Assembly: GCF_001590725.1 (NCBI RefSeq) | Contig: NZ_LQXR01000010.1 | Coordinates: forward strand, 1-64,000 | Direction: 5' to 3' | DNA length: 64,000 bases | From: Snodgrassella sp. CFCC 13594 | GTDB taxonomy: Bacteria; Pseudomonadota; Gammaproteobacteria; Burkholderiales; Neisseriaceae | Shown: piece by piece, positions 1,387-17,897 of the stretch | Layout of the letters: every line of letters begins with the position of its first letter | How positions within the stretch are numbered: the first letter of the stretch is position 1 | Program-made: the position numbers and the translations under genes | The notes under the pieces: model-generated | The model's input: the letters and a program-made list of their open reading frames with translations, nothing else | Database searches by the model: none | What the model was told of the DNA's origin: nothing

Positions 1387-1503
1387 GGTGTCTGTTGCAG
1401 TTGCATCTGGTGGTGTGGATTTGCAACGCTGTTACACTGTATGAAATAAAATCAAAAAGCGTTTATTGCACAAAGTGCGCAGCATTTTTCGCGCGCGGCT
1501 TCA

Positions 1504-2086
1504 ACCTAATGAAGATACCCTAGATATAATTAAACGTGAACAATATAGAGAACAATGGCAACAGTTAGTTCTAGAAAATGGTATTAAAGTAAGTCGTTCT
1601 ATACGAAATGGAGGCGCTATCTATGCATCGTTGTATCGCTATGATTATCAGTGGCTCCAGAGCTTTAACTCAGAACATCAAATAATCCAACAAGCACCTG
1701 AAACCCGTGTGGAATGGCCTCAACGAGATCGGGTGTACGTAAAACTATTACTACGAATTTTACATCAATCTAAAGATGATCTAAGTACTCCGAGACATTC
1801 TGCAAACTGGTATCTTATGCAATTACCGCAGCATTCAACAATAGAACATAATCTTAACAAGCTCCCATTAGTTAAACAGTTTTTAATGAAATATGTTGAA
1901 AGCATCACTGAATATCAACTACGAAGAGTCTGTGTAGCTGTTGAATCATTATCGTTAGATAATCAACAATTACACTTATGGCGAGTCTTTCGTTTAGCGG
2001 GACTCAGTAAAGAAAGAATAACTCCTGATGCAGCAAAAATTTTAAAACTATCTGGAATTTTTAAAACTGATGACAGCAAGAATTAA
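1504..2086 (+). pseudogene. tnsD: tnsD, 3' remnant cut by the Mu-like prophage
   Basis: The frame encodes about the last 195 residues of a TnsD/TniQ-type target-selection protein. Compared with Tn7 TnsD from memory, matching stretches include PNEDTLD, EQWQQLV, YASLYRYDYQWL, RVEWPQRDR, LNKLPLVKQFL and GLSKERIT near the C-terminus. Homology begins exactly after the phage end at 1503. The zinc-finger N-terminal region that recognises the attachment site is missing from this side. A TTG-initiated frame begins at 1466 inside the phage end, but its first dozen residues are phage-derived. The gene overlaps tnsE by 17 bp, as expected in a tnsDE operon. Confidence 0.9.
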
Positions 2087-3671
2087 TCAATTCGATCATA
2101 ATGTAACCGTGTCACATATTGGCGGACTTTTTAAAGGCTCAAGATCTCAAATATGGAGTATCAACCTTCAATGTTCACCAAAACAGGAAAAAAAATTTAC
2201 CAATTTCAGTAATGCGGCCATGCTAATCAGAGGTAAAAAGCTAAACTGTAGTGAACGACAATTATCCCAACCAAACCTAGTGATTACATTGTCTAATGAA
2301 AATACCCTTACACCATCATGCTTAAAATATTTTGATGAATTAACGACTGATTCAAACCTTGCGTATTTTGAGGGAATACAAACCAGCTTTATCATCGAGA
2401 GACCAGATCAAGCCACAATTCATCTTCCTCAATTTGAGTTAGCTCGCACGCTTTTCCTTATTAACTCTTATTTTTGTAGGGCAAGCCTCTCTACAACCAC
2501 AATCCAACATGAGTTTGAGGTTATTCAGAATGAAGATGGAAACTTAATTGTCTTTCTAGAAAATAATACAATGCCTTTAAAGTTGGTTAACCAAAAAGGG
2601 ACCCAATGCCTACTTGCTTGGTTACTACTTGATTCAAATGCAAAACAATCATTTGAAAGCATCTGCCGTTACCTTAACACTCAGCTCAAGAATGAGAATG
2701 GATGGAAAAAATGGATTTTCCAGTTTGATCCACCACCAATGATTGGTTGGACATTACATTTTCGAGGAAGGTATAACACATCACAAGAGGCTTTTCTTGT
2801 AGAAGAAATTGTTGGCATCGAAATCGATTCTAACATTCCAACAAACATTACTTTTTCACACCCATCTTTCATACAAATCAAGACTCAAGGACAGCAATCT
2901 GAACAAGGCTACAAGCCAGAATATAGTGACTCTCTAAACCCTAGTATTGATGATGATGCAACAGCTTCAATAAGGCAAGGAATTCGAGTTCTAAATGGTA
3001 ATGAATCCTGGGTAAGTTTCATTAAACCATTAGAAATAAATAAGAAAGGCAAAACCAAAATTACTAGACAGAAAGCAGAAGATGGTAGTGATGACAATGA
3101 GTCTGGTTCAGGATATTTAGTCAGTACAGACGAAGCAAATTATGCAGGTGATTTACCTGCTGCCGATGTCGGTGGCAAAAAGGACTATACAAATTACGAT
3201 CAGAAGTATGCTCAACGCTATAATAATTTCAACTCAATGATTGAAATACTCCAGTCTGGACATCAATGTACGCTTTATGAATCCGTAACCCATGAGCTTA
3301 TGAAAGTAGGACGTTCAGAATGTCATAAGCTTGCTAACAATAAACTACGAACAATTAAATTTGTACATCTTGCTCAAAGGGGAAAAGATTTTCTACTTAT
3401 TGAACTAGATACCGCTGATGGCATTAAGAGTATTTCGACTAAATTGATTCATCTGACAACCGATGATTGGAAAGTTTATTTAGATGATATTAAAAAACAT
3501 CTTGTCGCAAAATCATTGTCCTGGCCTAATGTTCTGTTCAATGATGTGTTTGGCATACATTCTCATACCCATATTGTCCATCCAAGGTTTGCAACTCAAG
3601 GAAGCGATTCTTCAGAATCAGTTAACAATTGGGCTGTAAGGATTATGAATGGGTTGAAGGACTTGATCTAA
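2070..3671 (+). CDS. tnsE: Tn7-like transposition protein TnsE
   Basis: The 533-residue product is nearly the length of Tn7 TnsE (538) and collinear with it. Recognisable blocks are VSHIGGLFKGS near the N-terminus, PQFELARTLFLINSYFCR, FDPPPMIGWTLH, VEEIVGIEI and, in the C-terminal DNA-binding half, LVSTDEANYAGDLPAADVGG. TnsE directs Tn7 into conjugative plasmids and lagging-strand replication structures by binding recessed 3' ends and the sliding clamp. The gene appears intact although tnsD upstream is broken, so the TnsE pathway could still work if tnsABC survive left of the window. Confidence 0.95.
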   Translation: MTARINQFDHNVTVSHIGGLFKGSRSQIWSINLQCSPKQEKKFTNFSNAAMLIRGKKLNCSERQLSQPNLVITLSNENTLTPSCLKYFDELTTDSNLAYFEGIQTSFIIERPDQATIHLPQFELARTLFLINSYFCRASLSTTTIQHEFEVIQNEDGNLIVFLENNTMPLKLVNQKGTQCLLAWLLLDSNAKQSFESICRYLNTQLKNENGWKKWIFQFDPPPMIGWTLHFRGRYNTSQEAFLVEEIVGIEIDSNIPTNITFSHPSFIQIKTQGQQSEQGYKPEYSDSLNPSIDDDATASIRQGIRVLNGNESWVSFIKPLEINKKGKTKITRQKAEDGSDDNESGSGYLVSTDEANYAGDLPAADVGGKKDYTNYDQKYAQRYNNFNSMIEILQSGHQCTLYESVTHELMKVGRSECHKLANNKLRTIKFVHLAQRGKDFLLIELDTADGIKSISTKLIHLTTDDWKVYLDDIKKHLVAKSLSWPNVLFNDVFGIHSHTHIVHPRFATQGSDSSESVNNWAVRIMNGLKDLI

Positions 3672-3727
3672 ACCAAAGGAAATTATCAACTTATAAGACT
3701 ATTTCACAAGAAAAAACATTTTACTTT

Positions 3728-3736
3728 TGCTATAAT
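3728..3736 (+). promoter_or_regulatory. Extended -10 promoter for the cargo operon
   Basis: TTGCTATAAT (TGC followed by TATAAT at 3731-3736) is an extended -10 element 32 bases before the ATG at 3768. No good -35 is visible. It lies in the 96-bp gap after tnsE, suggesting that the cargo is transcribed independently of the transposition genes. Confidence 0.5.
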
Positions 3737-3767
3737 TTATTGGTCAAACAATCAAATACTAAGAATT

Positions 3768-4241
3768 ATGTTACCTAATTTTCAACCACTGAGTGGGGCG
3801 CCATGGCAAATTTTGCCTCCAGGTGAGCACATCGCAACCCTACAAGAAATCGAACAAAGATTAGCATTTAACTCTCATAGACTTAACTTGTTTAATGGGC
3901 TTGTTTCCGCTGCTAGTTTATTAGCTCAGTCAGGATGTAAATATTTATATCTTGATGGTAGCTATGTAACAGAAAAGGATATGCCAGGTGATTTCGATGC
4001 ATGTTGGAGTATTGAACAGGTTGATTTTTCTCTAGTCGATCCAATTTTTTTAGATTTGAGTAATGGAACTACCGCACAAAAAGCACGTTTCGGTGGAGAA
4101 CTTTTTCCCAATCGTACTGAAAGAGCATCTGGTAAATTATTTAAAGATTTTTTTAAGAATGAAAAACATACAAATCAACAAAAAGGGATTATTGTAATAG
4201 ATCTTCAAACTGAATTTTCCTTACCAAATCAAGGAGTATAA
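3768..4241 (+). CDS. DUF6932-like / nucleotidyltransferase-fold protein
   Basis: The 157-residue protein resembles small DUF6932 proteins. The N-terminus has the LPPGEH pattern, and the centre has LDGSYVTEKDMPGDFDACW (residues 62-80), which looks like a GSx(10)DxD nucleotidyltransferase signature, as in the minimal nucleotidyltransferases of MNT-type antitoxins. It is the first gene of the cargo operon; a ribosome site (AAGGAG) for the next gene lies at its 3' end and only two bases separate the two genes. By analogy it might modify a partner protein or RNA as part of a toxin-antitoxin or defence module. That role is inference, and activity is not shown. Confidence 0.6.
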   Translation: MLPNFQPLSGAPWQILPPGEHIATLQEIEQRLAFNSHRLNLFNGLVSAASLLAQSGCKYLYLDGSYVTEKDMPGDFDACWSIEQVDFSLVDPIFLDLSNGTTAQKARFGGELFPNRTERASGKLFKDFFKNEKHTNQQKGIIVIDLQTEFSLPNQGV

Positions 4242-4243
4242 AA

Positions 4244-5488
4244 ATGATTTTAAACTCTTTTGAATTAAGTCTAACAGAACAAAAAATTAAACAGATACAA
4301 GCCACAATAGCTGATGTAGAGAAAGACACATCTGTAGATTCCTTTCTATTAAAATTAGAATTAGATTCTTTAAATGTATTTTTAAATGAATTGATTGAAG
4401 AGCGAGATGAATTCTTAGAAATTAGCCAAAATTTTAAACACAAGATCCCTGTAAAGAAAGAAGTCCTAAAATATCCAGAAAATCTAGTTTATATCAGAAT
4501 AGCTAATGATATCTCTCAAGAAGATATAGCTTCACTTTTAAATGTTAGTATTGAGGAGGTAAAAAGACAGGAAGATTACCTCTATAGACATTTAGATTCT
4601 ATTTCTTTATTGAGAATAAATGACTTTTTAGAAGAAAAAATATCGAATAGTTTAACTGTACATACGTCTCCAATTAATTGGAATAAATTTCCAATTAAAG
4701 AAATGCTAAAACGCAAATGGTTACTATCAGGCAATATTGATCCAATAAGTGCAATCAAAGCACGGTTTACAGATCTTTTTGGTAACGAGCAATATGAATT
4801 AGCATTACATAGAAAGTTTCACTTTAATGGAAATTCTCCCAATGAATACTCATTGCTTGCATGGCAGATTCAGGTTCTCAGTAAAGCGAAAGAGATAACA
4901 AAGCAAATAAAGATTCCAAAATTTAATAAAGATTCATCTTGGCTAAATCAGTTAGTTAGAATTTCTACTCATTCTAGTGGACCTCTAGAAGCTCAAGAAT
5001 TTCTTTTATCAAAAGGAATCATACTAATTGTAGAACCGCATTTACCATCTACATATCTTGATGGCGCTGCAATGCTTTTGCCAAACACCTCAATTCCTGT
5101 AATAGGACTCACATTAAGACAAGATCGCCTAGATAATTTTTGGTTTGTTCTTTTCCATGAATTAGGGCATATTTTTCTTCATCTGAATGCGGAACGCACC
5201 TCTATAGTTGATGAAGACGTTGGTATAGCTACAGATGAGGTTGAGATTGAAGCTGACAACTTTGCTCTTAACAACCTAATTCCTTCAGAACAATGGGATA
5301 TGTGTATGTGTAGGTTCTATATCAATGAAGATACCTTAAATGAAGATGCTAGAAATCTAAATATTCATCCAAGCATTATTGCTGGTAGATTAAGAAAAGA
5401 AAATAATAATTATCAAATATTTAATGAGAAAATTGGACTAAAGCAAGTACGAAAACTATTTTGGGGTGATGAATATGATTTTGAGTAA
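4244..5488 (+). CDS. HTH-domain ImmA/IrrE-family zinc metallopeptidase
   Basis: This 414-residue protein has an N-terminal helical, probably coiled-coil region (1-70), a helix-turn-helix-like segment (about 84-112, with ISQEDIASLLNVSIEEVKRQ) and a C-terminal ImmA/IrrE (COG2856) peptidase domain. The zinc motif HELGH is at 305-309, followed by an acidic helix (about 330-345) that could supply the third ligand. Proteins of this family cleave repressors or act as regulators and sensors in phage, stress and toxin-antitoxin loci. It sits two bases after the DUF6932-like gene and overlaps the next gene by about 20 bp, so the three form an operon. The cleavage target is unknown. Confidence 0.8.
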   Translation: MILNSFELSLTEQKIKQIQATIADVEKDTSVDSFLLKLELDSLNVFLNELIEERDEFLEISQNFKHKIPVKKEVLKYPENLVYIRIANDISQEDIASLLNVSIEEVKRQEDYLYRHLDSISLLRINDFLEEKISNSLTVHTSPINWNKFPIKEMLKRKWLLSGNIDPISAIKARFTDLFGNEQYELALHRKFHFNGNSPNEYSLLAWQIQVLSKAKEITKQIKIPKFNKDSSWLNQLVRISTHSSGPLEAQEFLLSKGIILIVEPHLPSTYLDGAAMLLPNTSIPVIGLTLRQDRLDNFWFVLFHELGHIFLHLNAERTSIVDEDVGIATDEVEIEADNFALNNLIPSEQWDMCMCRFYINEDTLNEDARNLNIHPSIIAGRLRKENNNYQIFNEKIGLKQVRKLFWGDEYDFE

Positions 5489-6554
5489 CCATTATGTTCC
5501 TTTCTTAAAGTGGCGACAAAGTGAATACCAAGCATTGTTTAAACTCAAAAAAGAGATTAAAGATCTTATTACCCCTTATATAATCATGCCACCAATCGAA
5601 TATGATTTTGAAGAAAAGCGGTTAAAGAAAACTATTCAAGAACACATTGAGCCTATGCCAAAACGCCTTAAAGATAAATGGGGAGCTAGACTCGCTCTTC
5701 TAGACTTTCATGACAGTATCGAGCAAGGGATCATGGATAATGGGGAAAATGTTATAAAATATGTCTATACAAAAGCCCTAGCTATGGGGTGTAAACTAAT
5801 TCCCGTTATCTCATTCCAGAAGTCCACTTGGTATTTAACAGAAATTAAATCAATTATTAGCTCTCAGAATTGTGGTATTGCTTTAAGACTTTTTTTAGAA
5901 GATTTGGATAAGCCGACTTTAAATAGTGAAATTGATCAAATATTGAAGATGTTTGATTTGAACATAAATGAGATTGATTTGATTATTGATTTAAAAGTAC
6001 CAGATAAGTTTGAACCATACCCTCTGTTCTCTAACCTCATCTTCATGAAAATTAATAAGATAAACAACCTCAAAAGTTATCGTTCTTTTATTATAGCTGC
6101 TCATTCATTGAATTTAAGAGAAATTAAACAACCAGGTGGATTATTTACTCGTCATGAATGGATGCTATATCCTTATTTTATAAATAAATTCAAAGATAAA
6201 TTGCCAACTTTTGGCGATTACACAACTGATAATATAGAATTTCTACCTCCTATGGATATGCGGAAGGTCAACCCATCAGCAAAATTAATTTATACACTAC
6301 CTCAACATTGGTATGTCTTAAAAGCTAAAGCATTTAGAGGAAATGAGATCCAAATGGTCTCTCTCTGTGCAAATGTTATTGGCCTACCAGGCTACAAAGG
6401 AGTTCCTTTTTCTGATGGGGATAAACGAATTCATGATACTGCAAACGGTAACGCAAATTTTGGAAACTTAGGAACGTGGAAGCAAGTGGCAATCAATCAT
6501 CATATGACAAAGGTTGTTTATCAGCTCTCCAGTTACCACGCTTCAATAATTTAG
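5469..6554 (+). CDS. Beta-family (sce7725-like) protein
   Basis: The product of about 361 residues begins NHYVPFLKWRQSEYQAL, typical of the 'beta protein' family (Pfam Beta_protein), to which the sce7725 family belongs. No catalytic motif can be assigned. The fold, with repeated LIPVI, IALRLFL and IDLIIDL strand segments, is consistent with a beta/alpha barrel. In many genomes such genes neighbour sce7726-type nuclease genes, as here. The start ATG at 5469 lies inside the peptidase gene; a GTG at 5466 and an ATG at 5475 are alternatives. The last 62 bp overlap the 3' end of the convergent nuclease gene. Confidence 0.75.
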   Translation: MNMILSNHYVPFLKWRQSEYQALFKLKKEIKDLITPYIIMPPIEYDFEEKRLKKTIQEHIEPMPKRLKDKWGARLALLDFHDSIEQGIMDNGENVIKYVYTKALAMGCKLIPVISFQKSTWYLTEIKSIISSQNCGIALRLFLEDLDKPTLNSEIDQILKMFDLNINEIDLIIDLKVPDKFEPYPLFSNLIFMKINKINNLKSYRSFIIAAHSLNLREIKQPGGLFTRHEWMLYPYFINKFKDKLPTFGDYTTDNIEFLPPMDMRKVNPSAKLIYTLPQHWYVLKAKAFRGNEIQMVSLCANVIGLPGYKGVPFSDGDKRIHDTANGNANFGNLGTWKQVAINHHMTKVVYQLSSYHASII

Positions 6555-7095
6555 TTTTAATTTCCAAACCTAATTCTTGGACAGTCATAACTTGATTCAA
6601 TTGCTTATACAGTTCTTTTCTAGTTTTATATTCAAGTCTCTCTGTAACACCATATTGATATAGCAGATCAATAGCCTCTGACTTCCATAAAATATGAGCT
6701 AAACTAAAAAAATCTACATTTGGATTAGGTTTAGCTCTCCTCATCGAGCGAAAGCTTACACCTCCTCTAGGACCTTTTGTCACTAAAATAAGTCCACACC
6801 ATTCGGGGGTAGAAACCATTACATCTTTGAAATGGTTTTCAGCTACAACAAAAGTAACTTTTTGCAAGCTTTTTGAATATTGTGATAACTGATTTTGCAA
6901 TCTAAGCAGATTATCTTTAGAGCTTTTAATTTCATAACCATGAATACAGTTATCAAATACTGCGATGTCTACTCGATTTCGACCATGCTCTAAAGGTAAC
7001 TCATCAACGACTAAATGATCGTCTTTAACGTAGTATTGCTTTTGCAATCTACTATGTAAAGCATGACGAATATCTTGATCATTTGTTGCATTCAT
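6493..7095 (-). CDS. sce7726-like PD-(D/E)XK nuclease-fold protein
   Basis: This 200-residue protein has VDIAVFDNCIHGYEIKSS around residues 42-59, giving D43 with E55-x-K57, the PD-(D/E)XK nuclease core; a helix with LRLQNQLSQYSK follows. It matches the sce7726 family, commonly found beside sce7725/beta-family proteins. It is transcribed toward the beta-protein gene, and the two coding regions overlap tail to tail by 62 bp, so each mRNA is antisense to the other. With its own upstream region it can be controlled separately. It is the probable DNA-cutting effector of the cargo system; this is inference. Confidence 0.75.
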   Translation of the reverse strand: MNATNDQDIRHALHSRLQKQYYVKDDHLVVDELPLEHGRNRVDIAVFDNCIHGYEIKSSKDNLLRLQNQLSQYSKSLQKVTFVVAENHFKDVMVSTPEWCGLILVTKGPRGGVSFRSMRRAKPNPNVDFFSLAHILWKSEAIDLLYQYGVTERLEYKTRKELYKQLNQVMTVQELGLEIKTKLLKRGNWRADKQPLSYDD

Positions 7096-7189
7096 TTTCT
7101 TTAAAGTATCTAAACTTCACTTATGTTTAATGATGTATTATACAATGTAGTAAACTTAGACGGTAGGAAGACTGCTGATTTTTGTGAAT

Positions 7190-7338
7190 AGTTAACAACT
7201 ATTTTGTAATTTATTTTTTAATAAGAAAGATTACCCATAATATAGTTAAGAACTATTTTGTGATTTTAGCGGATAAAAATTAACTTAAACCATTGATTTT
7301 TATCCGCCACCAGTTAACAACTATTTTGTCTGACCATA
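7190..7338. repeat. Tn7L-type end of element 1 with three TnsB-like sites
   Basis: Three same-orientation copies of AGTTAACAACTATTTTGT lie at 7190-7207, 7244-7261 (one base different) and 7312-7329. Wide spacing and count match Tn7L, which has three separated TnsB sites. Read from the terminus they become ACAAAATAGTTGTTAACT, similar in layout to Tn7's ACAATAAAGTCTTAAACT. Confidence 0.8.
7269..7307. terminator. Perfect 12-bp hairpin inside the element 1 end
   Basis: GCGGATAAAAAT and its exact complement ATTTTTATCCGC flank a 15-base spacer between the second and third TnsB-like sites. The AT-rich base on both sides could end transcription in either direction and insulate the transposon from outside reading. 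Confidence 0.5.
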
Positions 7339-7339
7339 G

Positions 7340-7344
7340 GCTAC
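7340..7344. repeat. 5-bp target duplication, left copy (GCTAC)
   Basis: GCTAC directly precedes the TGTATGAGAG terminus of element 2 and is repeated at 18047-18051 after the other end. Five bases is the Tn7 duplication length. One base to the left, GGCTA (7339-7343) may be the duplication of element 1. Confidence 0.9.
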
Positions 7345-7391
7345 TGTATGAGAGTAATAAAGTATCATACTACTCAATAAAGTTTCATACT
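7345..7391 (+). repeat. Tn7R-type end of element 2 with compact TnsB-like sites
   Basis: The terminus TGTATGAGA is followed by GTAATAAAGTATCATACT (7354-7371) and CAATAAAGTTTCATACT (7375-7391). The two sites are about 20 bp apart, the tight packing seen at Tn7R. The core AATAAAGT is shared with Tn7's own TnsB sites. Confidence 0.85.
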
Positions 7392-7400
7392 AAATTGCTC

Positions 7401-7452
7401 AAAAAATCCACATACGTTATGCTTTACAATAGCATAGATATGTGGATTTTTT
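7401..7452. terminator. Long hairpin between the element 2 end and tnsC'
   Basis: AAAAAATCCACATA (7401-7414) pairs with TATGTGGATTTTTT (7439-7452), and an inner TATGCT pairs with AGCATA. A-runs and T-runs on both sides make it a bidirectional terminator candidate. It abuts the ATG of the truncated tnsC and occupies the place where tnsA and tnsB should be. Confidence 0.65.
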
Positions 7453-8421
7453 ATGGCTAATTTAAAAAATGCTCAGAATCATGAATTCAAAATTCATAAG
7501 AATTCAGGTGGTGCTGAAAAAATGCTGAACTTCTTTGTCACCTTAATCAATGTTGTAGGTTTGCCCGTGGTTATGGTCGGCACACCTAAAGCCAAATTTA
7601 TATTCGATGGTGATCTGCGTTCAGCACGTCGTGGGGCTGGTTTCGGGGCTGTTATATGGGAACCTATGAAGAACACTCCCCCATTATCAAATACTACGAC
7701 TAGAACAGAATGGATGGCTTTCACCAATGCACTTTGGAAATATCAATGGCTCACCCATAAAGAACAACTGAGTGAAGAAATTCGAGACTGTTGGTATGAA
7801 CTCTCTCAAGGCGTACTGGATATAGTCGTCAAACTTTTTGTTTTGGCTCAATGCCGAGCGATCATGACAGGATTAGAAAGAATAACACCTAGTTTGCTTA
7901 GACAAGTTTATGAGGATGAACTCAAATTTGTCCATCCTATGATAGAAGCACTTAAGTCTGGAGATCCTAATCGCATCGCACTCTATTCTGACTTAACTAT
8001 TCCATATGTCGATAAAACCTTACTTTTACTTCAGAAAAAAATAGAAGAAGAACAAGAAAAAGTTGAACAATATAATGGAAATGTACATGCACAAAGATTG
8101 CATAACCTACTTATTGCCACTGGATATCCAGAATCTAAAGTAATCTCTACGATCAAAAAAGCCTTTGCCGACTTCCCCCATCTTAATATGCAAGAACTCA
8201 TGCCTATCGTTTCGAATTGGCTCACTGAAGTTGAGACAGATAAAGAAACTAGGCCTGAAAAAACTAATCTCAAAAAAATAAAACAACGTGAATGGATGAG
8301 CTTACCGTCAGATGATTTAAGGTTTAAGTTTTCTCAAAAGCAAAAATCTCAAAATTTTTATGACATTCTTCAATCAAGTGATTTAATTTTTAATACTCAA
8401 ACTTGGGTGCAATCAATGTGA
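7453..8421 (+). pseudogene. tnsC: tnsC, 5'-truncated
   Basis: The 322-residue frame matches the C-terminal part of the Tn7 regulator ATPase TnsC (555 residues). From residue 17 on, NSGGAEKMLNFFVTLIN and DLRSARRGAGFGAV match; further on ELSQGVLDIVVKLFVLAQ and LRQVYEDELKFVHPM follow Tn7 TnsC closely. About 245 N-terminal residues are gone, including Walker A and Walker B, so it cannot bind or hydrolyse ATP. The first 16 residues do not align and mark the deletion joint near 7500. The open frame is kept, so a C-terminal fragment could still be made. Confidence 0.9.
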
Positions 8422-8434
8422 TAGTAGAATTAAT

Positions 8435-9230
8435 ATGTTGAATTTCCCTACACCATATCCCAATGAGTTAATTTACAGCACGATTGCAAGAGCTGGAATT
8501 CATCATGCTATTACAAGCCCTAAGCAATTACTTGAAGATGATGTTCAAATCATTGATGTTGTACCGACACACTTCGACTTCCTAGAGGCCATTGAAACAA
8601 GGAAAACTTCTAAAAAAACTAGGCATAGAAATCATGGTACAAAAGATCAAGACTTACCATCCACTAATGCGACATCGGAAGTTAGCACCAACGAACCTAT
8701 TTCTGAGGGTACTATCTCCCCTCTGCTGAATTCAATGGTGTTGAAGATAAAACTGAAGTTCTTCATGTGTATCTTGACCGTTTCTCTGCATTTCAACAAA
8801 TGATTGATTTTTTTGCAAAGAAAAATCAGTTAAAAATTTTAGCTTTCAACTTCACAAATTACCTAACATTCAAGGCCACTCCAAACATATAAAGACTGAT
8901 GGTAATCCTAGATGTATCGCAGAAGTCAGTTTTCAATTTAATGGGCAAAATATTGTGATCTTAGAAGTAGATATTTCTGACAATAAGAAACCTCTCTCAA
9001 CTCGTGTTTTATCGATTAAAGACTTAAATCAATGGAATCATTCTGATCGAGCAAAAGTACTTGAGCTTATTGTTACTCAATGCTTACGTTGGCCAAAAGG
9101 AATCTTTAAGCATATTTGCTATAAAAATAATACGTTAAACCATCCTAAAATAAACTCCAACAATCAAGAAACTCCTGATCACGAACTACAAGGATGGGCA
9201 CATCGTTTATCAAATACGCTCATTAGATAG
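8435..9230 (+). pseudogene. tnsD-tnsE deletion fusion, frameshifted
   Basis: The first 36 residues are the TnsD N-terminus (NFPTPYPNELIYSTIARAG, then SPKQLLEDD). At about 8540 the frame passes directly into the middle of TnsE (VVPTHFDF, then VSTNEPISEG), so an in-frame deletion removed most of tnsD and about 300 codons of tnsE. Near 8720 the TnsE frame shifts: a second frame carries LDRFSAFQQMIDFF and stops near 8890, and a third carries ILEVDISDNKKPLSTRVLS through HPK and ELQGWAHRL to the stop at 9230. The TnsE part differs clearly from the intact TnsE of element 1, so it is a separate lineage. Confidence 0.85.
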
Positions 9231-9333
9231 ATAACAATGAAATATATCGAATAAACAATATATTTAATGAAAACTATCTTAAATTATAAATTTCATATAA
9301 ATTCTTTAAAAATATAACTTTTGGGTCCAATTT

Positions 9334-11133
9334 ATGTGGTCGGATATAGAATCTAAAATAGACTTTTTAAACTATTCTGAAGCATCAGAAATTATTATTA
9401 ATGTTCTTCAAAATCCGCAAATGTTACCTATTTCAATAGGCGTATTTGGATCATGGGGTACTGGCAAATCTACGATCTTAAATCTTATTCAAAACAATTT
9501 AGAACGTATTGAAAACCATGATGATTATATAATTATTAGATTTGATGCTTGGTTATATCAGGGTTTTGATGACGCTAGGGCTTCACTATTAGAGGTCATT
9601 AATACTGAAATTTCAAAATTGGTCAAACAAGATGAAAAATTATACGAAAAAGCATTAAGTATCGGAAAAAGAATTAATAAGTTGCGTGCTCTAGGTTGGG
9701 CTGCCGAAGGTACGGCTTTAGCTTTTGGCGTTCCTACATTTGGTTTACTTTCAAAAGCCATTGATTCTATTGGTAACGGTATCAATGGCAATGCTAGTGA
9801 AGAAGATGCAACTCACATTACTGAAGTTATTAGTAAAGGACAAGAAAGCTTAAAAGATATTCTTAACGAAGAAAAAAGTACCGCACCTAAGGAAATAACA
9901 GCCTTAAAAAATGAATTTGAAGAATTATTGGAATCATTGAATAAAAAAGTAATTGTCTTTGTTGATAATTTAGATCGATGTCTTCCAAAGCAAACCATTG
10001 AGACCCTTGAATCATTACGACTATTTTTATTCATGAAAAACACAGCTTTTGTGATAGCAGCTGACGAAGAAATGGTGAGATTCGCTGTTAAAGATCATTT
10101 TAATGGGATTGATGAAAGACATATAACTGACTATCTAGATAAACTTATTCAGTTTCCTGTAAAAGTACCTCGTATTAGTACAAGAGAAGTGCGAGCTTAT
10201 TTATTCTTATTGTATGCATCTATCCATGAAAATTATGCAACAGAAACAGCAAAGCTAGAAAATCTTCGAAATGAATTGGAGTCGAATCTGAGGCTTTCTT
10301 GGAAAGATGATCCAATTAAGGTTAAAGATGCTCTTGCCTTATTAGATGAACAGGCAGTTAATACACTTAATCTCTCTAACAACTTTTATGTCTCTGACCG
10401 TATAGCACATCTTCTAGCTGAGAATAAATACATTGAGGGTAATCCACGAATTGTAAAAAGAATGCTTAATGTCATTAGTATGCGTCAAATGATTGCTAGC
10501 GCTAGAAAAATGCCTAACGATATTGGGTTAATCACCAAAATGGCTTTATTTGAAAGATGTTGTAATTCAAAAAGTGTCTCTCTTTTATACAATACAATTA
10601 ACAGTTCATCAGATGGTAAACCTAAAATATTAGAAGAATTAGAAGAATTAACAAATGATATAGATACATTTAAAAACAAATTACCGAAGGAATGGGAAGA
10701 GCATCATGTTTTCTTATTTAGTTGGTTTAGCCTAGAACCAAAGCTAAAAGGTGTAAACCTTAGACCTTTAGTATACTTAAGCAAAGAGACTGTACCTTTA
10801 AGAACTATAACAAAAGGCTTATCTAGTGATGGTGAAGCTGCATTAAAAACTTTATTGAAAGTTACGCATTCTTCTTCTAAAGCAGCAATTCAAGCTATTA
10901 GGAATATTCCAATAGGTGAAGAGTCATTAGTGATGAATCTAATATTAGATGAATTAAATAAACATACTCATTGGGAGGCAAAACCAAATGGTTTCATAGG
11001 CGCATTTTTATTAGCTAGAGAACTAGAAGACACTAGACCTCAGTTTATACATTTCATGAACACGGTCATGGTGGAAAAAACTCCATGGTTTAGCCTATTG
11101 ATAAGTAAAGAAAAATGGTTTCCAAAAAATTAA
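9334..11133 (+). CDS. qatA: QatA, KAP-family P-loop NTPase of the Qat anti-phage system
   Basis: The 599-residue ATPase has Walker A GSWGTGKST at 39-47, an aromatic-rich FDAWLYQG segment typical of KAP NTPases, and Walker B IVFVDNLDRC around 208-217. A hydrophobic Gly/Ala-rich stretch at about 128-150 interrupts the P-loop domain, as in KAP proteins, where it can insert in the membrane. It heads a four-gene operon with qatB, qatC and qatD. In the QatABCD system all four genes are needed for phage defence; the ATPase is thought to power or gate the response. No strong ribosome site is visible before the ATG. There is no sign of frameshift. Confidence 0.9.
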   Translation: MWSDIESKIDFLNYSEASEIIINVLQNPQMLPISIGVFGSWGTGKSTILNLIQNNLERIENHDDYIIIRFDAWLYQGFDDARASLLEVINTEISKLVKQDEKLYEKALSIGKRINKLRALGWAAEGTALAFGVPTFGLLSKAIDSIGNGINGNASEEDATHITEVISKGQESLKDILNEEKSTAPKEITALKNEFEELLESLNKKVIVFVDNLDRCLPKQTIETLESLRLFLFMKNTAFVIAADEEMVRFAVKDHFNGIDERHITDYLDKLIQFPVKVPRISTREVRAYLFLLYASIHENYATETAKLENLRNELESNLRLSWKDDPIKVKDALALLDEQAVNTLNLSNNFYVSDRIAHLLAENKYIEGNPRIVKRMLNVISMRQMIASARKMPNDIGLITKMALFERCCNSKSVSLLYNTINSSSDGKPKILEELEELTNDIDTFKNKLPKEWEEHHVFLFSWFSLEPKLKGVNLRPLVYLSKETVPLRTITKGLSSDGEAALKTLLKVTHSSSKAAIQAIRNIPIGEESLVMNLILDELNKHTHWEAKPNGFIGAFLLARELEDTRPQFIHFMNTVMVEKTPWFSLLISKEKWFPKN

Positions 11134-11147
11134 GGGAGATATAAATC

Positions 11148-11909
11148 ATGGGAACATCAACCTCAAGTAAAGGGCCAGGTAGTAAATCACCATTAGTGCC
11201 TTCATGGGCTGACAATGATGGTCAAGGCCCAGGTAACAATCAATTAGAGCAACGTTTCAGAGGTTTTAGAGCTACCTTAGGACAAGCTGTTTCAATTGGC
11301 GGAGGAAGTACGGATACTCTAAAAAAAGCCCTTGGCCATTATGCCAAGAGTGCCACTGGTGGTAAATCTAACGGGGCAAGAAGATTTAGCTCTATGATAA
11401 GTGGTGGCGGCACTTTATTTGATACTTTAAGGTCATTGCAATCAGGTACAGACACTAATTCCCTAAATATTTCAGATTTACAGGGACAACCTGTAGATGT
11501 GGTAATTGATAAAATTATTGAGTCTATCATCGATGTCAATGGAGATTCAGAGCGTATTAGAGCTGCTATGAATGAAGCTCTAGCAGAGGCTTTAGATGGA
11601 TTATCGACATTTGATTTTTCAAAAATTACTGATGATATTATCGTGGATATGATGATTAATTACCTGACCCAATGTATTTTCGAACAAATTATTTTAGATT
11701 CTAAAACAGCATTTGATAAAGCTGATACACCAGAAAAAGTAGAAATGATCGAATCCAGCTTATTGGAATTAATAAAGACATCAGTAGATTTGAATTTTGG
11801 AAGTCATTTGGAAAATATCAATACACTTTCCAAACAAGACATTGAAACAATACAAAAAAATGCTATCCAAGATATTTGGGGTGAATGGGAGGATCACTTA
11901 AATGATTGA
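11148..11909 (+). CDS. qatB: QatB, Qat anti-phage system protein of unknown function
   Basis: The 253-residue protein has a Gly/Ser/Pro-rich, probably disordered N-terminus (1-35), then a segment with RFRGFRATLGQAVSIGGG and repeated small-residue patches, and an acidic helical C-terminal half. No enzyme motif is seen. It is named by its position between the KAP ATPase and the QueC-like gene, and by the general look of QatB proteins (VPSWADND near the start). AGGGAGA precedes the ATG, and the stop overlaps the qatC start (ATGATTGA), so the two are translationally coupled. Confidence 0.85.
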   Translation: MGTSTSSKGPGSKSPLVPSWADNDGQGPGNNQLEQRFRGFRATLGQAVSIGGGSTDTLKKALGHYAKSATGGKSNGARRFSSMISGGGTLFDTLRSLQSGTDTNSLNISDLQGQPVDVVIDKIIESIIDVNGDSERIRAAMNEALAEALDGLSTFDFSKITDDIIVDMMINYLTQCIFEQIILDSKTAFDKADTPEKVEMIESSLLELIKTSVDLNFGSHLENINTLSKQDIETIQKNAIQDIWGEWEDHLND

Positions 11910-13224
11910 GCTCTATTTTGATACAGACAACACTCAGTTACCTCCTTTATCAGACAGTTTGATTCCTATTCACTTATATGGCTCGCCGGCAAAAAATGGG
12001 GAATATGCAAGTATTGGTCGCCCTTTACTAAATGAAATAAGAAGGATCAAAGAAGATTTAGATGAAACAGCGCTAGATTTCCTGACTATAGCTATGGCCA
12101 TTACTGCAGCTGATACGTTTGTTGAAAGAAATAAGCAGGCTGAAGATGGATGGTGCCGAGAATTTAGGCTTTCAATTCCTCTAATAAATCCTATTATATG
12201 GCTTCAAGAAATTGGTTTATTGTCAGAAATTATGCACTTTTTGAGTGGTGACTTATGGCATTTTGAATTTAGGGCGGGGAATTTTGATTGGCCAACTAAA
12301 ATAAAACGTGGTCGTAAAATACCTCTAGCGGGGCATGACTCTGCATGCCTTTTCTCTGGTGGATTAGATAGTGCTATCGGAATTATTGATCTAACTTCTA
12401 AAAATATTCATCCAGTACTCATTAGTCATGCTTATGCTAGAGATAAGTCTAAACAGGATAATCTATATAACTTATTAGGTTTGAGAAATTCGAAATTTCA
12501 AGTTATTGCATATCCAAGAAAGGCTGGTGATATTCCAACTGACGTACAAATGAGGACTAGAAGCTTTAATTTCATAGCTTTCGGCGCATTAATCAGTACT
12601 GCAATCAGCCAACATCATCAAGCAGGTAAAGTAACAACCTTATATGTGCCAGAAAATGGCTTGATCTCTATTAATCCACCTCTTACTCCGCGTCGAATTG
12701 GTTCATTGAGTACTAGAACAACCCATCCCCATTATATGAAGCTATTAAACGAATTGTTTAAGCGAGTGCATTTACCCGTATTTGTTGAAAATCCTTACCA
12801 ATTTTTGACAAAAGGTGAGATGATGAAAAATTGCTCAAACAAGGCAGTTTTGATGCAAATCGCCAAAGATACAGTGTCTTGTGGTAAATGGAAAAGAACA
12901 GGGATTCAGTGCGGAAAGTGTGTTCCGTGTATAATAAGAAGAGCATCGTTCCATTCAGCTTCTATACCTGACCAAACAGTAGATTATGTTTATAAACAAT
13001 TGGATTTAGTAGTAAAGGATCCAGATAATCGTGATGACCTTATGTCAATGATTCTAGCTATTAGAAAATTGAAAAAGGTAAGAAATCCTAAAATTTGGAT
13101 ATCTAAGTCAGGAGCATTACCTACTGATTTACATGTCAGAAATCAAATTCTAGATACGGTGGTTCGAGGATTTAAAGAAGTTGAAGACTATTTAAAGTCG
13201 CAATCTTTAGGTGTTAATATTTGA
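11902..13224 (+). CDS. qatC: QatC, QueC-like enzyme of the Qat anti-phage system
   Basis: The 440-residue protein has the PP-loop ATP-binding motif LFSGGLDSA around residues 151-159 and a C-terminal cysteine cluster (C333 region: CGKW, then QCGKCVPC) that should bind zinc, both as in QueC (7-cyano-7-deazaguanine synthase). It is about twice the length of housekeeping QueC, with an extra N-terminal domain of about 145 residues. In defence loci such enzymes are proposed to make a deazapurine-type modification on DNA or a protein. The substrate here is unknown. The TGA stop overlaps the TTG start of qatD. Confidence 0.9.
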
Positions 13225-13964
13225 TCTACCCCTACATTGATTTTCATTGCCATTTAGATTTATATGATGACCCACATGCTGTAGCAAAAGCATGTGGAGA
13301 TTCTAAAAGCTATATATTATCGGTAACAACAACGCCTAAAGCGTGGTATGGTACGGATGAACTAGCTCGTCATAGTAAAAGAATTAAAACAGCATTGGGT
13401 TTACACCCGCAAATAGCTCATGAGCGCTATAAGGAGCTTGAGCTGTTTGATTCACTAGTTAATCAAACTAGATATATTGGTGAAATTGGACTAGATGGCT
13501 CCCCTAGTTTTCGAAATCATTGGGAAATGCAGAAAAAGGTTTTCTCACACATATTAAAAAAAACTAATAGCGGATCAGCTAAAATTTTAACGATACATAG
13601 CCTCAGAGCAACAAAGCCCGTCATAGAACTCCTAAGTGAAAATTTTGATAACGGTATACCAGTACTGCATTGGTTTACAGGTAATCTTTCTGAGTTAAGA
13701 GAGGCCTTGAAAGCTGGATGCTGGTTTTCAATAAATGAGCGAATGCTAAAAACAGAAAAGGGACGGCAGCTAGTCAAGCACATTCCTAAAAATATGATTT
13801 TAACTGAAACGGATGGGCCATTTATTGTGAATTCTAATATTCCTTTATTACCAGGCCAGGTTCAACCTGCTCTTAATAAGCTTGCAGCTTTATGGGAAGT
13901 AAATCCTGATGAAGCTGCTGCTCAAATTCATGAAAATTTCAAACATTTATTAACAAATACATAA
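13221..13964 (+). CDS. qatD: QatD, TatD-family metal-dependent nuclease
   Basis: This 247-residue TatD-like hydrolase has the metal-binding HCH of DFHCHLDLY (residues 9-11), GLHPQ, the IGEIGLDGS strand, the HSL motif, HWFTG and the closing TETDGPF aspartate. TatD proteins are 3'-5' DNases. The start is TTG at 13221 in a four-base overlap with the qatC stop; no ATG exists close upstream, and the DFHCH motif fixes the N-terminus. It is the last gene of the operon and the likely nuclease of the Qat response. Confidence 0.9.
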
Positions 13965-13992
13965 CTATGATTTGCATTTAAATAGAAATTTA

Positions 13993-14113
13993 TTAAATTG
14001 TATGTGGTAGCAAATCTTGTCGATTTATATCTAAAGCCCTAGCTATTTCATAGATTTTTTCCAAAGTAGGATTCACCTCCCCCCCCTTTCAGCCCTCCTT
14101 AAATAACTTCGAC
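13993..14113 (-). pseudogene. XRE-family regulator, 3' remnant with a G8 tract
   Basis: Read on the minus strand, the stretch encodes NPTLEKIYEIARALDINRQ, the C-terminal half of an XRE helix-turn-helix domain, ending at a TAA at 13993-13995. Upstream, SYLRRAERG fits the normal motif but is out of frame with it because of a run of eight G (C8 at 14079-14086 on the plus strand); six or nine would restore the frame. No 5' part is seen further right. It may be what is left of a controller gene for the restriction enzyme that follows. The rest of the 13965-14361 gap shows no gene I can support. Confidence 0.65.
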
Positions 14114-14361
14114 CCCAGTATGGGATAGATTGTTTGAACTTGTGAAGCTGTATACTGAATCAATCATGCCTACTGAAGTTTTACAGGGGCTGCAGTTTAT
14201 GAATTTGGTAGGGTATTTTTGATATTTTTTAAAACATAATCATGTAAAGTGTTAATGTTAAAATTATGACATATAGAATATAGTCTTGTTAACCTTAGAT
14301 GTTCTCAAACAAAATAATCTAAAAAATTTTAATATTTCCCTCTGTTGCAGGAGTTGGTTGC

Positions 14362-17300
14362 ATGTCATTATTTCAATCTATTATTGTAAAAAAATATCTT
14401 AACAATCTCAATAAAGAGGAAGTGGATCAAGTATGGGATAAATTTCATTCCCACTTCCAAGACAACGACATACAAGACAACATTAAAAAAAGCAAAGAAG
14501 AGCAATATCAGGAAGGATTTTTACGAGACTTATTTGTCAATATATTCAACTATGTTTTGAATCCAACTGCAGGATTTAATTTAACTACCGAACTTAAAAA
14601 TATTAAAGGTTCTAAAAAGTGCGATGGTGCCATACTCAAAGACTCCAAAGCTCTTGCTGTAATTGAATTAAAAGGCATGGATACTACTGACCTTGCTAGT
14701 ATCGAAGATCAGGCTTTTGGCTACAAAAATAATCATCCAACTTGCCGCTATGTGATGACTTCTAACTTTCAAAAACTACGATTTTATATTGATAACGCTG
14801 TAGAATTTATAGAGTTCGACTTGTTCAAAATAACCAGAGAAGACTTTAATTTTCTATTTCTACTACTAAAATCCGATAATTTACTGGCTGATTTACCACT
14901 TAAAATTAAAAGTGAGAGTATTAGTCAGGAAGAGAAAATCACCAAGCAACTTTATCAAGACTACTCAACTTTTAGACAATTGCTATTCAAAGATTTGGTT
15001 GAAAAAAATCCTCAATACAATTCACTCACATTATTCCAAAAATCTCAAAAATTACTAGATCGCTTATTGTTTATCTTTTTTGCTGAAGATAGCGGTCTAC
15101 TTGCTGCTAACACAGCTCGTACTATGCTAAAAGAATGGGAACATCTTAAAGATTTAAAAATGCCGATTAGCGTATACGACCAATTAAAACGCTATTTTAA
15201 TTTTTTGAATACAGGATACAAAGACAATATTAGCGAAATTTTTGCGTATAACGGCGGCTTATTTAAGCCGGATGATGTATTAGACAATGTCAAAATATCT
15301 GATGATGTACTTAAGCCGCATATTAGTAAACTTGCTGACTATGATTTTTCGAGTGAAGTTGATGTCAATATTTTAGGACGTATCTTTGAAAATAGTTTGA
15401 CTGAAATTGACGAAATCAAAGCCAAATTAAACGGTGATAAACTCGATAAATCACAATCTAAACGTAAAAAAGATGGAGTATTTTACACACCCAAATATAT
15501 TACAAATTATATTGTACAAAATACAATAGGCAAATTGTGTAGCGATAAAAAAGCAGAAATTGGCATTCTAGACGCCGACTATATTATGGATAAAAAACGT
15601 CAAAAGAAAACTCAAGAGGCTTTGCTGCAAAAACTAAAAGACTATCGTGAGTGGTTACTTGCTATCACCATTTGCGACCCTGCATGTGGATCAGGGGCAT
15701 TTCTCAATGAAGCCTTAAATTTCTTAATGACGGAACATGCTTATTTAGATGAATTAGAAAGTAAATTATTTGGCGGTGGCTTGGTATTCCAAGAGGTACG
15801 AAATCACATTTTGGAAAATAACTTGTTTGGGGTAGATATTAATCAAGAATCTGTTGAAATAGCTAAATTATCACTTTGGTTACGTACAGCAGAGCCACAT
15901 CGAAAGCTATCGAATTTGAATGAAAATTTAAAATGTGGCAATTCTTTAATTGATGAAGCTTCTGTAGCTGGAGATAAAGCTTTTGATTGGAAATATGAGT
16001 TCCCAAATGTGTTTAAGAATGGTGGGTTTGATGTAATCATAGGTAACCCACCTTATGGCGCAAAAATAGATATTAAACAACTAAGCCACTTACAAAAAAA
16101 ATATGAGGGAAGTGGGTTAAATAAAATCTTTTCAGATACTTATGTTTTATTTTATATTTTAGGATTAAATCATCTTATAAAAGATGAAGGATTATTAGGT
16201 TATATTGCACCCAATACTTGGCGTACAGTAATAAATGGTAATGATTTTAGGCAGTATTTACTAAAGAATTTCTCTATACATAAAATAGTGCAACATACTG
16301 AAAAAGTATTTACAGATGCCACAGTTGATGTCGATACAATAATTATAAAAAATTCCATCTCAGAAAATAACGATATTTCAGTTATTATTGGTTCATTAAA
16401 AGGTGATTATAAAGTTAATAATGTAAATCAATCTGAATTGTTAGATCAGGCGTTTATAAACTTATCTTTAAGTGACTACCATATAAAAATTAAGAAAAAA
16501 ATAGAGAATCAATCTTATTTGGTTAAAGATTTACTTCTTGTAAAAAATGGTACAAAACCTTATGAAAAAGGTAAGGGACAACCTGCGCAAACAGCGGAAA
16601 CATTAAAAACAAAACCTTTTACATCCGAAATAAAAATTGATGACAGCTTTTCTCCATTAATTGGCGGAAGTAATTTCAATCGCTATGTTATTTTATGGAA
16701 TAATGACAATTGGATAAAATATGGAGAATGGCTAGCAGCACCCAGAGATAAGGCTATTTTTAATGCACCTGAAAAATTAATATTTAGACAAACCTCTGAC
16801 AAGCTTGTAGGTGTATTTGTAGATTCTACATTTATTATGCGGGATAATACGCATATCATTTTATCTAAGCAAAATTCTCAAATTAACTTGAAATTCGCGT
16901 TAGCTTTATTAAATTCTAAATTAGCTAATTTTTATTATCAAGTTATTAATCCTGAAAAAGGCGAAGCTCTAGCTCAAGTAAAAGCTTTTCATTTAGAAAA
17001 CTTGCCAATTAAAAAAATTCCTTTAATAAAACAAGAAAATTTTATAATCAAAGTTGATGAAATTTTATATTTTAATCAAGAACTAAAAAAGCTTAATAAT
17101 AAATTTTTACGAATGCTAGAACGCAAATTTAACCTTACTGAATCATCAAAGAATCTGCAAGGTTGGCGAAATCTGACCTATTCTGAATTAATTAAAGAAT
17201 TAGGTAAAAAGAAAATCAAACTCTCACTTGCTGATGAAGCAGAATGGGAAGATTATTTTTTAGCCGAGCAGCAGAACGCTCAAAGCTTACAAGCTCAAAT

Positions 17301-17388
17301 TATCCAAACTGATAAAGAAATCGACAATATGGTTTATCAGCTTTATGGTCTCACTGATGATGAAATCAAAATTATTGAGTCGTATTAA
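14362..17388 (+). CDS. Single-chain type IIG restriction-modification enzyme (Eco57I-like)
   Basis: The 1008-residue protein fuses nuclease, methylase and specificity parts. The N-terminal third holds a PD-(D/E)XK-like site, CDGAILKDSKALAVIELKG (about residues 90-108). The methylase core has SAM motif I DPACGSGAF (about 438-446) and catalytic NPPYG (about 562-566), the N6-adenine type. The last 300 residues resemble TaqI/Eco57I target-recognition regions. Such enzymes cut a few bases from their site and methylate one strand for self-protection. CAGGAG precedes the ATG. No separate methylase or specificity gene adjoins. The recognition sequence cannot be read. Confidence 0.88.
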   Translation: MSLFQSIIVKKYLNNLNKEEVDQVWDKFHSHFQDNDIQDNIKKSKEEQYQEGFLRDLFVNIFNYVLNPTAGFNLTTELKNIKGSKKCDGAILKDSKALAVIELKGMDTTDLASIEDQAFGYKNNHPTCRYVMTSNFQKLRFYIDNAVEFIEFDLFKITREDFNFLFLLLKSDNLLADLPLKIKSESISQEEKITKQLYQDYSTFRQLLFKDLVEKNPQYNSLTLFQKSQKLLDRLLFIFFAEDSGLLAANTARTMLKEWEHLKDLKMPISVYDQLKRYFNFLNTGYKDNISEIFAYNGGLFKPDDVLDNVKISDDVLKPHISKLADYDFSSEVDVNILGRIFENSLTEIDEIKAKLNGDKLDKSQSKRKKDGVFYTPKYITNYIVQNTIGKLCSDKKAEIGILDADYIMDKKRQKKTQEALLQKLKDYREWLLAITICDPACGSGAFLNEALNFLMTEHAYLDELESKLFGGGLVFQEVRNHILENNLFGVDINQESVEIAKLSLWLRTAEPHRKLSNLNENLKCGNSLIDEASVAGDKAFDWKYEFPNVFKNGGFDVIIGNPPYGAKIDIKQLSHLQKKYEGSGLNKIFSDTYVLFYILGLNHLIKDEGLLGYIAPNTWRTVINGNDFRQYLLKNFSIHKIVQHTEKVFTDATVDVDTIIIKNSISENNDISVIIGSLKGDYKVNNVNQSELLDQAFINLSLSDYHIKIKKKIENQSYLVKDLLLVKNGTKPYEKGKGQPAQTAETLKTKPFTSEIKIDDSFSPLIGGSNFNRYVILWNNDNWIKYGEWLAAPRDKAIFNAPEKLIFRQTSDKLVGVFVDSTFIMRDNTHIILSKQNSQINLKFALALLNSKLANFYYQVINPEKGEALAQVKAFHLENLPIKKIPLIKQENFIIKVDEILYFNQELKKLNNKFLRMLERKFNLTESSKNLQGWRNLTYSELIKELGKKKIKLSLADEAEWEDYFLAEQQNAQSLQAQIIQTDKEIDNMVYQLYGLTDDEIKIIESY

Positions 17389-17417
17389 TAACTTTTATCT
17401 ACTGGTAAAGAAATAAA

Positions 17418-17442
17418 AAACGCCACCTAATTGGTGGCGTTT
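17418..17442. terminator. Terminator after the type IIG enzyme
   Basis: AAACGCCACC, a 5-base loop and GGTGGCGTTT form a perfect 10-bp stem with A-run before and T-rich base after, 30 bases past the stop. Confidence 0.85.
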
Positions 17443-17897
17443 CTAATTGATATTCGATCCTAATTTAGACCAAAATCCTCACCTCCATATCCTCATCAGG
17501 CATGGGCTAATTGATACCTTCATCATCAATCGTAAATTCATTATAGAGAACCTCAGACCGTTAATTTGGGGTTCTTTGCTATCTTTGCATAATTATTTTA
17601 AATATTTATCCTATTTAATCAAATCCTCAACACGCCCTAGTGTTAAATAACTCAAGATATGAGTAATAGTTCACGTACACATCTAGTGCAATGAGAATGA
17701 TGCGCACATCTATATGAGAATGGGGGCTCACTTAAATGATAATCTACACTTATAGACTTTCCAGAATTAAAAAATGAAATACTACGAAGAAAAAATCAAT
17801 TACTTCAAGATATTGATAAACTGAAAAGCTTACACTGACTTTCTAACATCACTGATATAGTATGGAAATAGACTCGACAGCCCTAAAGTTGCATTTC
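17443..17897. other. AT-rich stretch without a supportable gene
   Basis: Only short broken frames are present. One plus-strand frame at 17447-17650 has no recognisable motif or ribosome site. A fragment near 17755-17838 reads as a short helical peptide ending KLKSLH before a stop and may be the tail of a lost gene. The stretch lies between the type IIG terminator and the transposon end. Confidence 0.4.

Follow-up and report, generated by a model that had tools for sequence, protein, structure and literature searches.

A Tn7-like element with collapsed tns genes and open defence genes downstream of glmS in Snodgrassella sp. CFCC 13594

In a 64,000-nucleotide stretch of DNA from Snodgrassella sp. 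CFCC 13594 (contig NZ_LQXR01000010.1, positions 1 to 64,000; hereafter the window), positions 7345-18046 form a Tn7-like element, here termed element 2, that starts with TGTATGAGAG, ends with CTCTCATACA, and is bounded by TGT...ACA termini and by a perfect 5 bp target-site duplication, GCTAC. Element 2 has lost most of its transposition (tns) genes and has kept, with all frames open, an operon of the Qat anti-phage family and a type IIG restriction gene. We consider it probable that element 2 is a defective Tn7-like transposon that arrived whole and decayed in place at glmS.

Collapsed tns genes and ends of element 2

The results confirm that the collapsed tns genes that a first-pass annotation of the window had placed at 7453-9230 are real. 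Pfam detects Tn7_TnsC_Int at the end of a 322-aa open reading frame (ORF) at 7453-8421, a weak TniQ start in 8435-8803 (E 1.3e-4, under the curated cut-off), and TnsE_C in 8955-9230, and bases 9-156, 153-1194, and 1193 onward of element 2 match three blocks that are separate in six of six Acinetobacter relatives. At joint 1 (element 2 bases 153-155; window 7497-7499), where 3.58 kb has been removed, tnsA codon ~15 leads in frame to tnsC residue ~243. tnsA, which had been proposed to be wholly lost, thus survives as a stub of ~15 codons that reads in frame into tnsC. At joint 2 (element 2 bases 1193-1194; window 8537-8538), where 2.3 kb has been removed, tnsD codon ~35 leads in frame to tnsE codon ~304. 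The in-frame fusion of tnsD to tnsE that had been described is therefore present, with 34-35 rather than 36 tnsD codons kept, and the tnsE remnant downstream contains two frameshifts rather than one. The break points of both joints share about 1-3 bp. The reported losses of tnsB and of the ATPase half of tnsC also stand: no contig of the genome has a match to a tnsB of element 2's type, and the Walker A and B stretches are gone from the tnsC remnant, with TnsC_Int kept. Element 2 thus lacks the gene set of an autonomous element, that is, intact tnsA, tnsB, and tnsC together with tnsD or tnsE.

The relatives that make these joints readable are in Acinetobacter. A search of a bacterial and archaeal genome collection returned six loci, three of them in Acinetobacter with 88-93% identity and the rest with 43-53% identity, the figures relating to the part of tnsC kept in element 2. 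Among 175 genomes of the relatives' genus, 54 gave a match, and six (G120, G121, G122, G207, G220, and G224) contain both the tnsC-tnsD block (79-94% identical over ~1042 bp; E 0 to 2.5e-266) and the tnsE block. We term these six relatives "fuller" and not "intact": tnsA, tnsC, and tnsD give full-length matches in all six, tnsB is whole in five and is split in G207 by a 491-bp mini-element, and tnsE is whole in four, G220 and G224 having broken copies. The six share with element 2 the TGT...ACA termini, TnsB-type repeat arrays, tns gene order, a 5-bp duplication (perfect in four of the five with both ends compared; the 5 bases differ at G220), left-end blocks 80-86% identical to that of element 2 (five with a left end compared), and a position directly downstream of glmS (five of six; the G121 locus starts too late). 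Element 2 differs from them in missing tnsB, most of tnsA and tnsD, and half of tnsC and tnsE, in having two right-end repeats instead of three, in its cargo, and in its host, which appears to belong to another class. A published Tn7-like element of Acinetobacter is Tn6171 (PMC8190619).

The ends, which the first-pass annotation had called undamaged, are damaged on one side. The left end of element 2 retains all three repeats, but the right end has two 20-bp repeats as compared to three in six of six Acinetobacter relatives. The repeats, of the AATAAAGTTTCATACT type and forming arrays of inverted repeats at both ends, are presumably TnsB-binding sites, by analogy with the family. In Tn7, the final two right-end sites are reported to need to overlap for function (PMC11406308); the two right-end repeats of element 2 keep the 20-bp spacing, and activity of this end is therefore possible.

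The tnsC remnant has a ratio of nonsynonymous to synonymous substitution rates (Ka/Ks) of 0.08-0.12 versus its three nearest relatives and, among the four nearest, 18 silent and 9 replacing unique changes. For tnsE, in a comparison of three, silent and replacing unique changes number 21 and 18 in element 2, 39 and 14 in G120, and 19 and 27 in G207. Purifying selection on the remnants as proof of function was rejected, since the fuller relatives give similar ratios. Most changes in the remnants are older than the collapse, and the collapse is recent relative to the split from the relatives; the ratios reflect mostly pre-collapse history and so permit no firm statement on selection since.

The insertion site at glmS

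Two Tn7-like elements stand in tandem in one attTn7, 24 and 25 bp past glmS. The 25 bp, the distance from the glmS stop codon to the insertion point of element 2 in the rebuilt empty site (the attTn7 position), rests on linking contigs C15 and C10 of the assembly through the duplication of the second element, element 1, and through a rebuilt terminator. Contig C15 contains, in order, glmS, a right end with element 1 repeats, tnsA, tnsB, tnsC, and the start, or N part, of the element 1 tnsD (a 325-codon ORF), followed by Mu-like phage genes (Portal_Mu, Phage_Mu_F). A Mu-like prophage splits tnsD of element 1, with AACCTAATGAA at both prophage edges (window ~1500-1510 and L015 ~10206-10216), from which it follows that contigs C15 and C10 hold the two halves of element 1. 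When the outer flanks of C15 and C10 are joined, they rebuild a terminator hairpin behind glmS (-26.4 kcal/mol; z -6.4; none of 200 shuffles folds as stably).

The right end of element 2 faces the left end of element 1, and the termini differ, TGT...ACA for element 2 vs. TAT...ATA for element 1. The sole TnsB match in the genome is that of element 1, which is ~45-46% identical to TnsB of the relatives. A stack of two differently ended elements fits target immunity limited to one end family. Because TnsD-directed insertion occurs next to glmS, element 2, which lies farther from glmS, is probably older than element 1.

Both elements are predicted, from base composition and motif distribution, to be of foreign origin. 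G+C content is 30-36% in 2-kb steps through 2001-18000 vs. 44-52% beyond, and AGGCTGCCTGAA, the AG-simDUS motif of Neisseriaceae (PMC7371117), occurs 15 times in the window, always at 21142 or beyond, and in neither element. A glmS match was found in 12 of 13 other genomes of the host genus, and inspection by eye of the first 100 bp after glmS in those genomes revealed no element end. The MFS flank gave no tblastn match in the fetched glmS loci, and thus none of them offered a natural empty site with this flank.

Movement in trans and other histories

Because the first-pass annotation had offered mobilisation in trans as one cause of the collapse and identical joints at several sites as its sign, we searched for the joints of element 2 elsewhere. 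The joints were found in 0 of 175 genomes of the relatives' genus, 0 of 348 genomes of the relatives' family (a set that seems to include the 175), 0 of 82 further genomes from the family of the host, and 0 of the 119 other members of an overlapping set of 120 host relatives. In viral contigs, neither joint had an exact match and the kept tnsC had no confirmed relative, no plasmid record had 80% of 7345-9330 in one place, E. coli genomes gave no near match, and, among 122 loci compared, the joints occurred solely in loci of the genome itself. The same deletion derivative was thus seen at no second site, whereas a trans-mobilised element would be expected at more than one; a strain-level second copy could be missed because the collections hold mostly one genome per species. 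In G274, G162, and G177, weak alignments extend beyond a joint by 7-31 bases; G177 and G162 were rejected as shared joints, having an ordinary long tnsD at loci L040 and L048. In the host family, G063 gave one 28-bp match inside tnsE.

Two mini-elements bear on whether ends of this family move in trans; both came up in loci fetched for other purposes, and no search for more was made. The 491-bp mini-element in tnsB of G207 (L067:1446-1936) carries three repeats of element 2's type at each end, a single ORF of 77 codons, and a perfect AAAAT duplication, and has no tns gene; it resembles element 2 in end type and in its 5-bp duplication and differs in having three repeats per end, the 77-codon ORF only, and a position other than glmS. 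In G253 (L119:472-739), glmS is followed by a 268-bp mini-element that consists only of a right and a left end, each with three repeats, and is flanked by TATGA. Each is such as either trans movement or an insertion with later deletion would leave, and both, by motif count, keep three repeats at each end, unlike element 2. Separately, loci L120, L121, and L122 contain one element, alike in inner sequence and with right terminus TGTGGGGCAG, which has probably moved, because its left flank in G176 and G177 differs from that in G126.

Collapse recurs at glmS sites in Acinetobacter. We fetched 20 right-end-like places, hand-picked from the 175-genome search and biased by having been recognised through their resemblance to element 2's own right end. 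Eleven have a right end of element 2's type without a tnsC of that type, one of which (L106) is cut by a contig end. In the other 10, which were selected for being without such a tnsC, no match to TnsB, TnsC, TnsD, or TnsE (E 1e-5) occurs in 10.9-19.5 kb downstream; seven lie directly after glmS, three keep the tnsA start, and eight have fewer than three right-end repeats. The left ends of these 10 were not found in the fetched stretches, and they may accordingly be remnants of larger or broken islands. Of the remaining nine places, four (L114, L115, L116, and L118) have TnsA-D, and four (L119-L122) have end repeats and no Tns match in the fetched stretch, which for L122 reaches ~0.5 kb past the end. 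The last (L117, in G232) holds a collapsed element that, like element 2, lies at glmS with both ends (GCTGT on both sides), has an in-frame internal tns deletion, and has kept cargo. Unlike element 2, it has tnsB fused to tnsD (an in-frame tnsB'-tnsD' ORF of 432 aa), a left terminus ...ATA, and metabolic cargo (GntR/aminotransferase, BenE, MFS, and phosphoenolpyruvate mutase), in which five proteins scanned gave no PADLOC match at E 1e-8. Another right-end-like terminus lies directly beyond it. The collapse in G232 is independent of that in element 2. At L104:290-690 and, reversed, at L106, a left end of another type is followed within 5-6 bp by a right end of element 2's type, which indicates that stacking of elements recurs.

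According to the reading that we consider probable, that of decay in place, a whole element of the lineage now seen in Acinetobacter would have entered a Neisseriaceae-like bacterium, where its own TnsABCD would have placed it 25 bp past glmS. Low-homology deletions would then have taken out the stretch from early tnsA into the middle of tnsC and that from early tnsD into the middle of tnsE, one right-end repeat would have dropped out, and frameshifts would have followed. Element 1, with other end repeats, would later have inserted between glmS and element 2, tnsD of element 1 would then have been split by the Mu-like prophage, and element 2 would now be a fixed island whose Qat and type IIG genes are inherited by descent. 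Several observations weigh against this history. Collapse could have preceded arrival, as a perfect duplication forms either way; the two remaining right-end repeats keep their spacing and the left end is whole; the G207 mini-element shows that the end family of element 2 can move in trans; and, in two of the 10 collapsed right ends, all three repeats persist. The kept parts of tnsC and tnsE show no excess of amino-acid changes, from which the loss would be either very recent or partly constrained, and the proposed insertion order depends on glmS being the target of TnsD. In addition, no whole parent with the same cargo was found in the 175 Acinetobacter genomes (24 matched some part) or in the 120 host relatives (7 matched, own genome included).

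We think it unlikely, but deserving of some weight, that element 2 is instead non-autonomous and reached this site already collapsed, with TnsABCD supplied in trans by a whole relative that this genome lacks. The perfect duplication, the presence of both termini, and the whole left end are as such movement would leave them, the two mini-elements offer tns-less precedents, and recurrent stacking means that helpers and defective copies can meet; yet element 2 is a single copy with joints seen nowhere else, it has lost a right-end repeat that both mini-elements keep, and the genome contains no related helper except element 1. Mobilisation by element 1 was rejected as the default, its TnsB being 45% identical and its repeats ACAAAATAGTTGTTAACT vs. 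AATAAAGTTTCATACT. By the annotation's own test, the suggestion of mobilisation in trans thus fails on the joint search, on the lost repeat, and on the presence in the genome of only a divergent TnsB.

It seems to us highly improbable that the in-frame TnsA-TnsC product, of 322 codons and lacking Walker motifs, has been kept as a protein that would poison transposition of related elements. Its open frame, low Ka/Ks, and retained TnsC_Int, together with the fact that joint 1, joint 2, and the G232 joint all preserve frame (a chance of 1 in 27, were they independent), would suit such a role, but the similar pattern of change in whole relatives and in the frameshifted tnsE remnant indicates that the ratio predates the collapse; moreover, three joints are few, joint 2 is followed by frameshifts, and the fusion was found in no second genome. 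A broader version, in which tns collapse at glmS leaves in-frame fusions (TnsA-TnsC, TnsD start-TnsE, and TnsB-TnsD in G232) that are kept as small inhibitors, is a long shot; if true, the fusions would bind TnsA, TnsC, or ends and would silence or exclude incoming Tn7-like elements, and a dead element would be a guard of its site as well as a cargo island. Scarcely credible, finally, is that the deletions are assembly artefacts. The source assembly is a 131-contig draft in which element 1 is split over two contigs, but a single contig spans both joints, whose break points share only 1-3 bp, the right-end loss and the frameshifts are separate damage, and the only TnsB match on any contig is that of element 1.

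Degenerate Tn7 islands are known. The collapse of element 2 is ordinary in kind, and its use lies in its readability: a transposon that carries defence genes is seen becoming an island, and the fuller relatives allow each of its joints to be read. In Tn6552 of A. baumannii ATCC 17978, tnsD is reported to be interrupted by ISAba12 (PMC8190619), making it a Tn7-family element with a disabled tns gene and both ends kept, comparable to element 1, in which tnsD is split by a prophage; element 2 is unlike Tn6552 in that the transposase genes themselves were lost by internal deletion. Benler et al. (2021; PMC8649781) report known innate systems in 26% of surveyed Tn7-like transposons, which resemble element 2 in carrying anti-phage systems as cargo; Qat is absent from Table 1 of that paper. 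Surveys based on tnsB, such as that one, are blind to elements like element 2, and Tn7-derived islands and non-autonomous copies may be undercounted because several Acinetobacter genomes contain collapsed right ends and mini-elements without tns genes that share the end type of element 2. Decay in place versus riding on helpers becomes a testable question. In the literature searched, no publication joining Tn7, Neisseria, tnsB, and glmS was found; tnsB-less Tn7 islands may still be described.

Cargo and neighbouring features

The coordinates of the features of both elements are collected in Table 1.

Table 1. Features of elements 1 and 2 in the window
Feature	Position	Strand	Details or basis
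Element 1 tnsD C-terminal part (1466-2086) and open tnsE (2070-3671)	1466-3671	+	Pfam, contig comparison
Element 1 cargo	3768-7095		DUF6932 protein 3768-4241; PD-Lambda-2-like genes B, C 4244-6554; cll-like protein 6493-7095 (-)
Element 1 left end	7190-7338	-	three repeats, ACAAAATAGTTGTTAACT / ACAAAATAGTT type
Element 1 duplication	7339-7343		GGCTA; other copy L015:4114-4118, 20-24 bp past glmS stop
Element 2 target-site duplication, left copy	7340-7344	none	GCTAC, read directly
Element 2 right end	7345-7391	+	terminus TGTATGA and two 20-bp TnsB-type repeats (7352-7371, 7372-7391)
Intrinsic-terminator-like hairpin	7401-7452	+	T run abuts tnsA start codon
tnsA start, first ~15 codons to joint 1 (7497-7499)	7453-7499	+	comparison with relatives
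tnsC C-terminal part, ~residues 243-548, in frame with tnsA start	7500-8421	+	Pfam and relatives
tnsD start, first 34-35 codons to joint 2 (8537-8538)	8435-8538	+	Pfam and relatives
tnsE from ~codon 304, two frameshifts	8539-9230	+	Pfam and relatives
qatA, qatB, qatC, qatD anti-phage operon, all open	9334-13964	+	PADLOC E 3.5e-240, 2.7e-95, 1.5e-123, 7.5e-98
Type IIG restriction enzyme-methyltransferase, 1008 aa, open	14362-17388	+	PADLOC E 6.9e-269
Tail of ~160-aa gene	17749-17846	+	open in relatives G120, G207, G224
Element 2 left end	17894-18046	-	three TnsB-type repeats, terminus ...CTCTCATACA
Element 2 target-site duplication, right copy	18047-18051	none	GCTAC
Right half of glmS terminator interrupted by both elements	18047-18069	+	

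The first-pass annotation had found the defence genes undamaged, and this holds: the qatA-qatB-qatC-qatD order is complete, the four gene lengths equal those of plasmid copies from A. lwoffii and A. towneri (in which C and D are annotated qatC and qatD), with ~90-91% nucleotide identity over the operon, and the type IIG gene is open throughout. By analogy with its family, the operon would protect against phage. Ka/Ks for the Qat genes versus the two plasmid copies is 0.06-0.13, which is not decisive as proof of selection for cargo, the tnsC remnant giving similar values. The operon is a mosaic, with qatA nearest the A. lwoffii copy (Ks 0.26 vs. 0.77), qatB and qatC nearest the A. towneri copy (Ks 0.19 and 0.11), and qatD distant from both plasmid copies, which agree with each other.

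Long Qat matches in the genome searches for a whole parent were at 86% in G146, at 92% and 90% in two pieces in G224, and at 65-67% in the others. The type IIG gene had no long match among those listed in the genus of the relatives, and a match of 617 bp at 65% in G032 in the host-relative search. Three plasmid records matched element 2, all within its Qat part.

The annotation had read the pattern as selection for cargo and not for movement. That mobility genes are lost and cargo is kept is borne out; selection for cargo is plausible and falls short of being demonstrated. By a hand estimate, the stretch from the right end to tnsE in G120 is ~7.8 kb and the cargo coding sequence of element 2 is 7.6 kb, and the four disabling lesions (two deletions and two frameshifts) all fall in the tns part, with a chance of ~0.5^4 = 0.07. 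This placement hints at selection for cargo, without proving it. Weighing against the hint is the ~160-aa gene near the left end, which is open in three of six relatives (the G121 locus stops before its left end) and is reduced in element 2 to a short, frame-broken tail; its G207 copy has no Pfam match better than E 0.05.

The cargo of element 1 includes PD-Lambda-2-like and cll-like genes, making two defence islands stacked at one site.

The hairpin between the right end of element 2 and tnsA folds at -24.9 kcal/mol vs. a mean of -7.8 kcal/mol in mononucleotide shuffles. Since insertion cuts the native glmS terminator, this hairpin may supply a replacement for it. A terminator-like hairpin of different sequence also precedes tnsA in the right end of element 1 (L015:4201-4262). 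Such hairpins also occur in right ends of Acinetobacter relatives, including eroded ends without tns genes, which were found by likeness to this stretch of element 2 and are biased accordingly; those at L108, L110, L112, and L113 were read separately and not from the fold-energy comparison. In the right end at L115, no such hairpin was seen.
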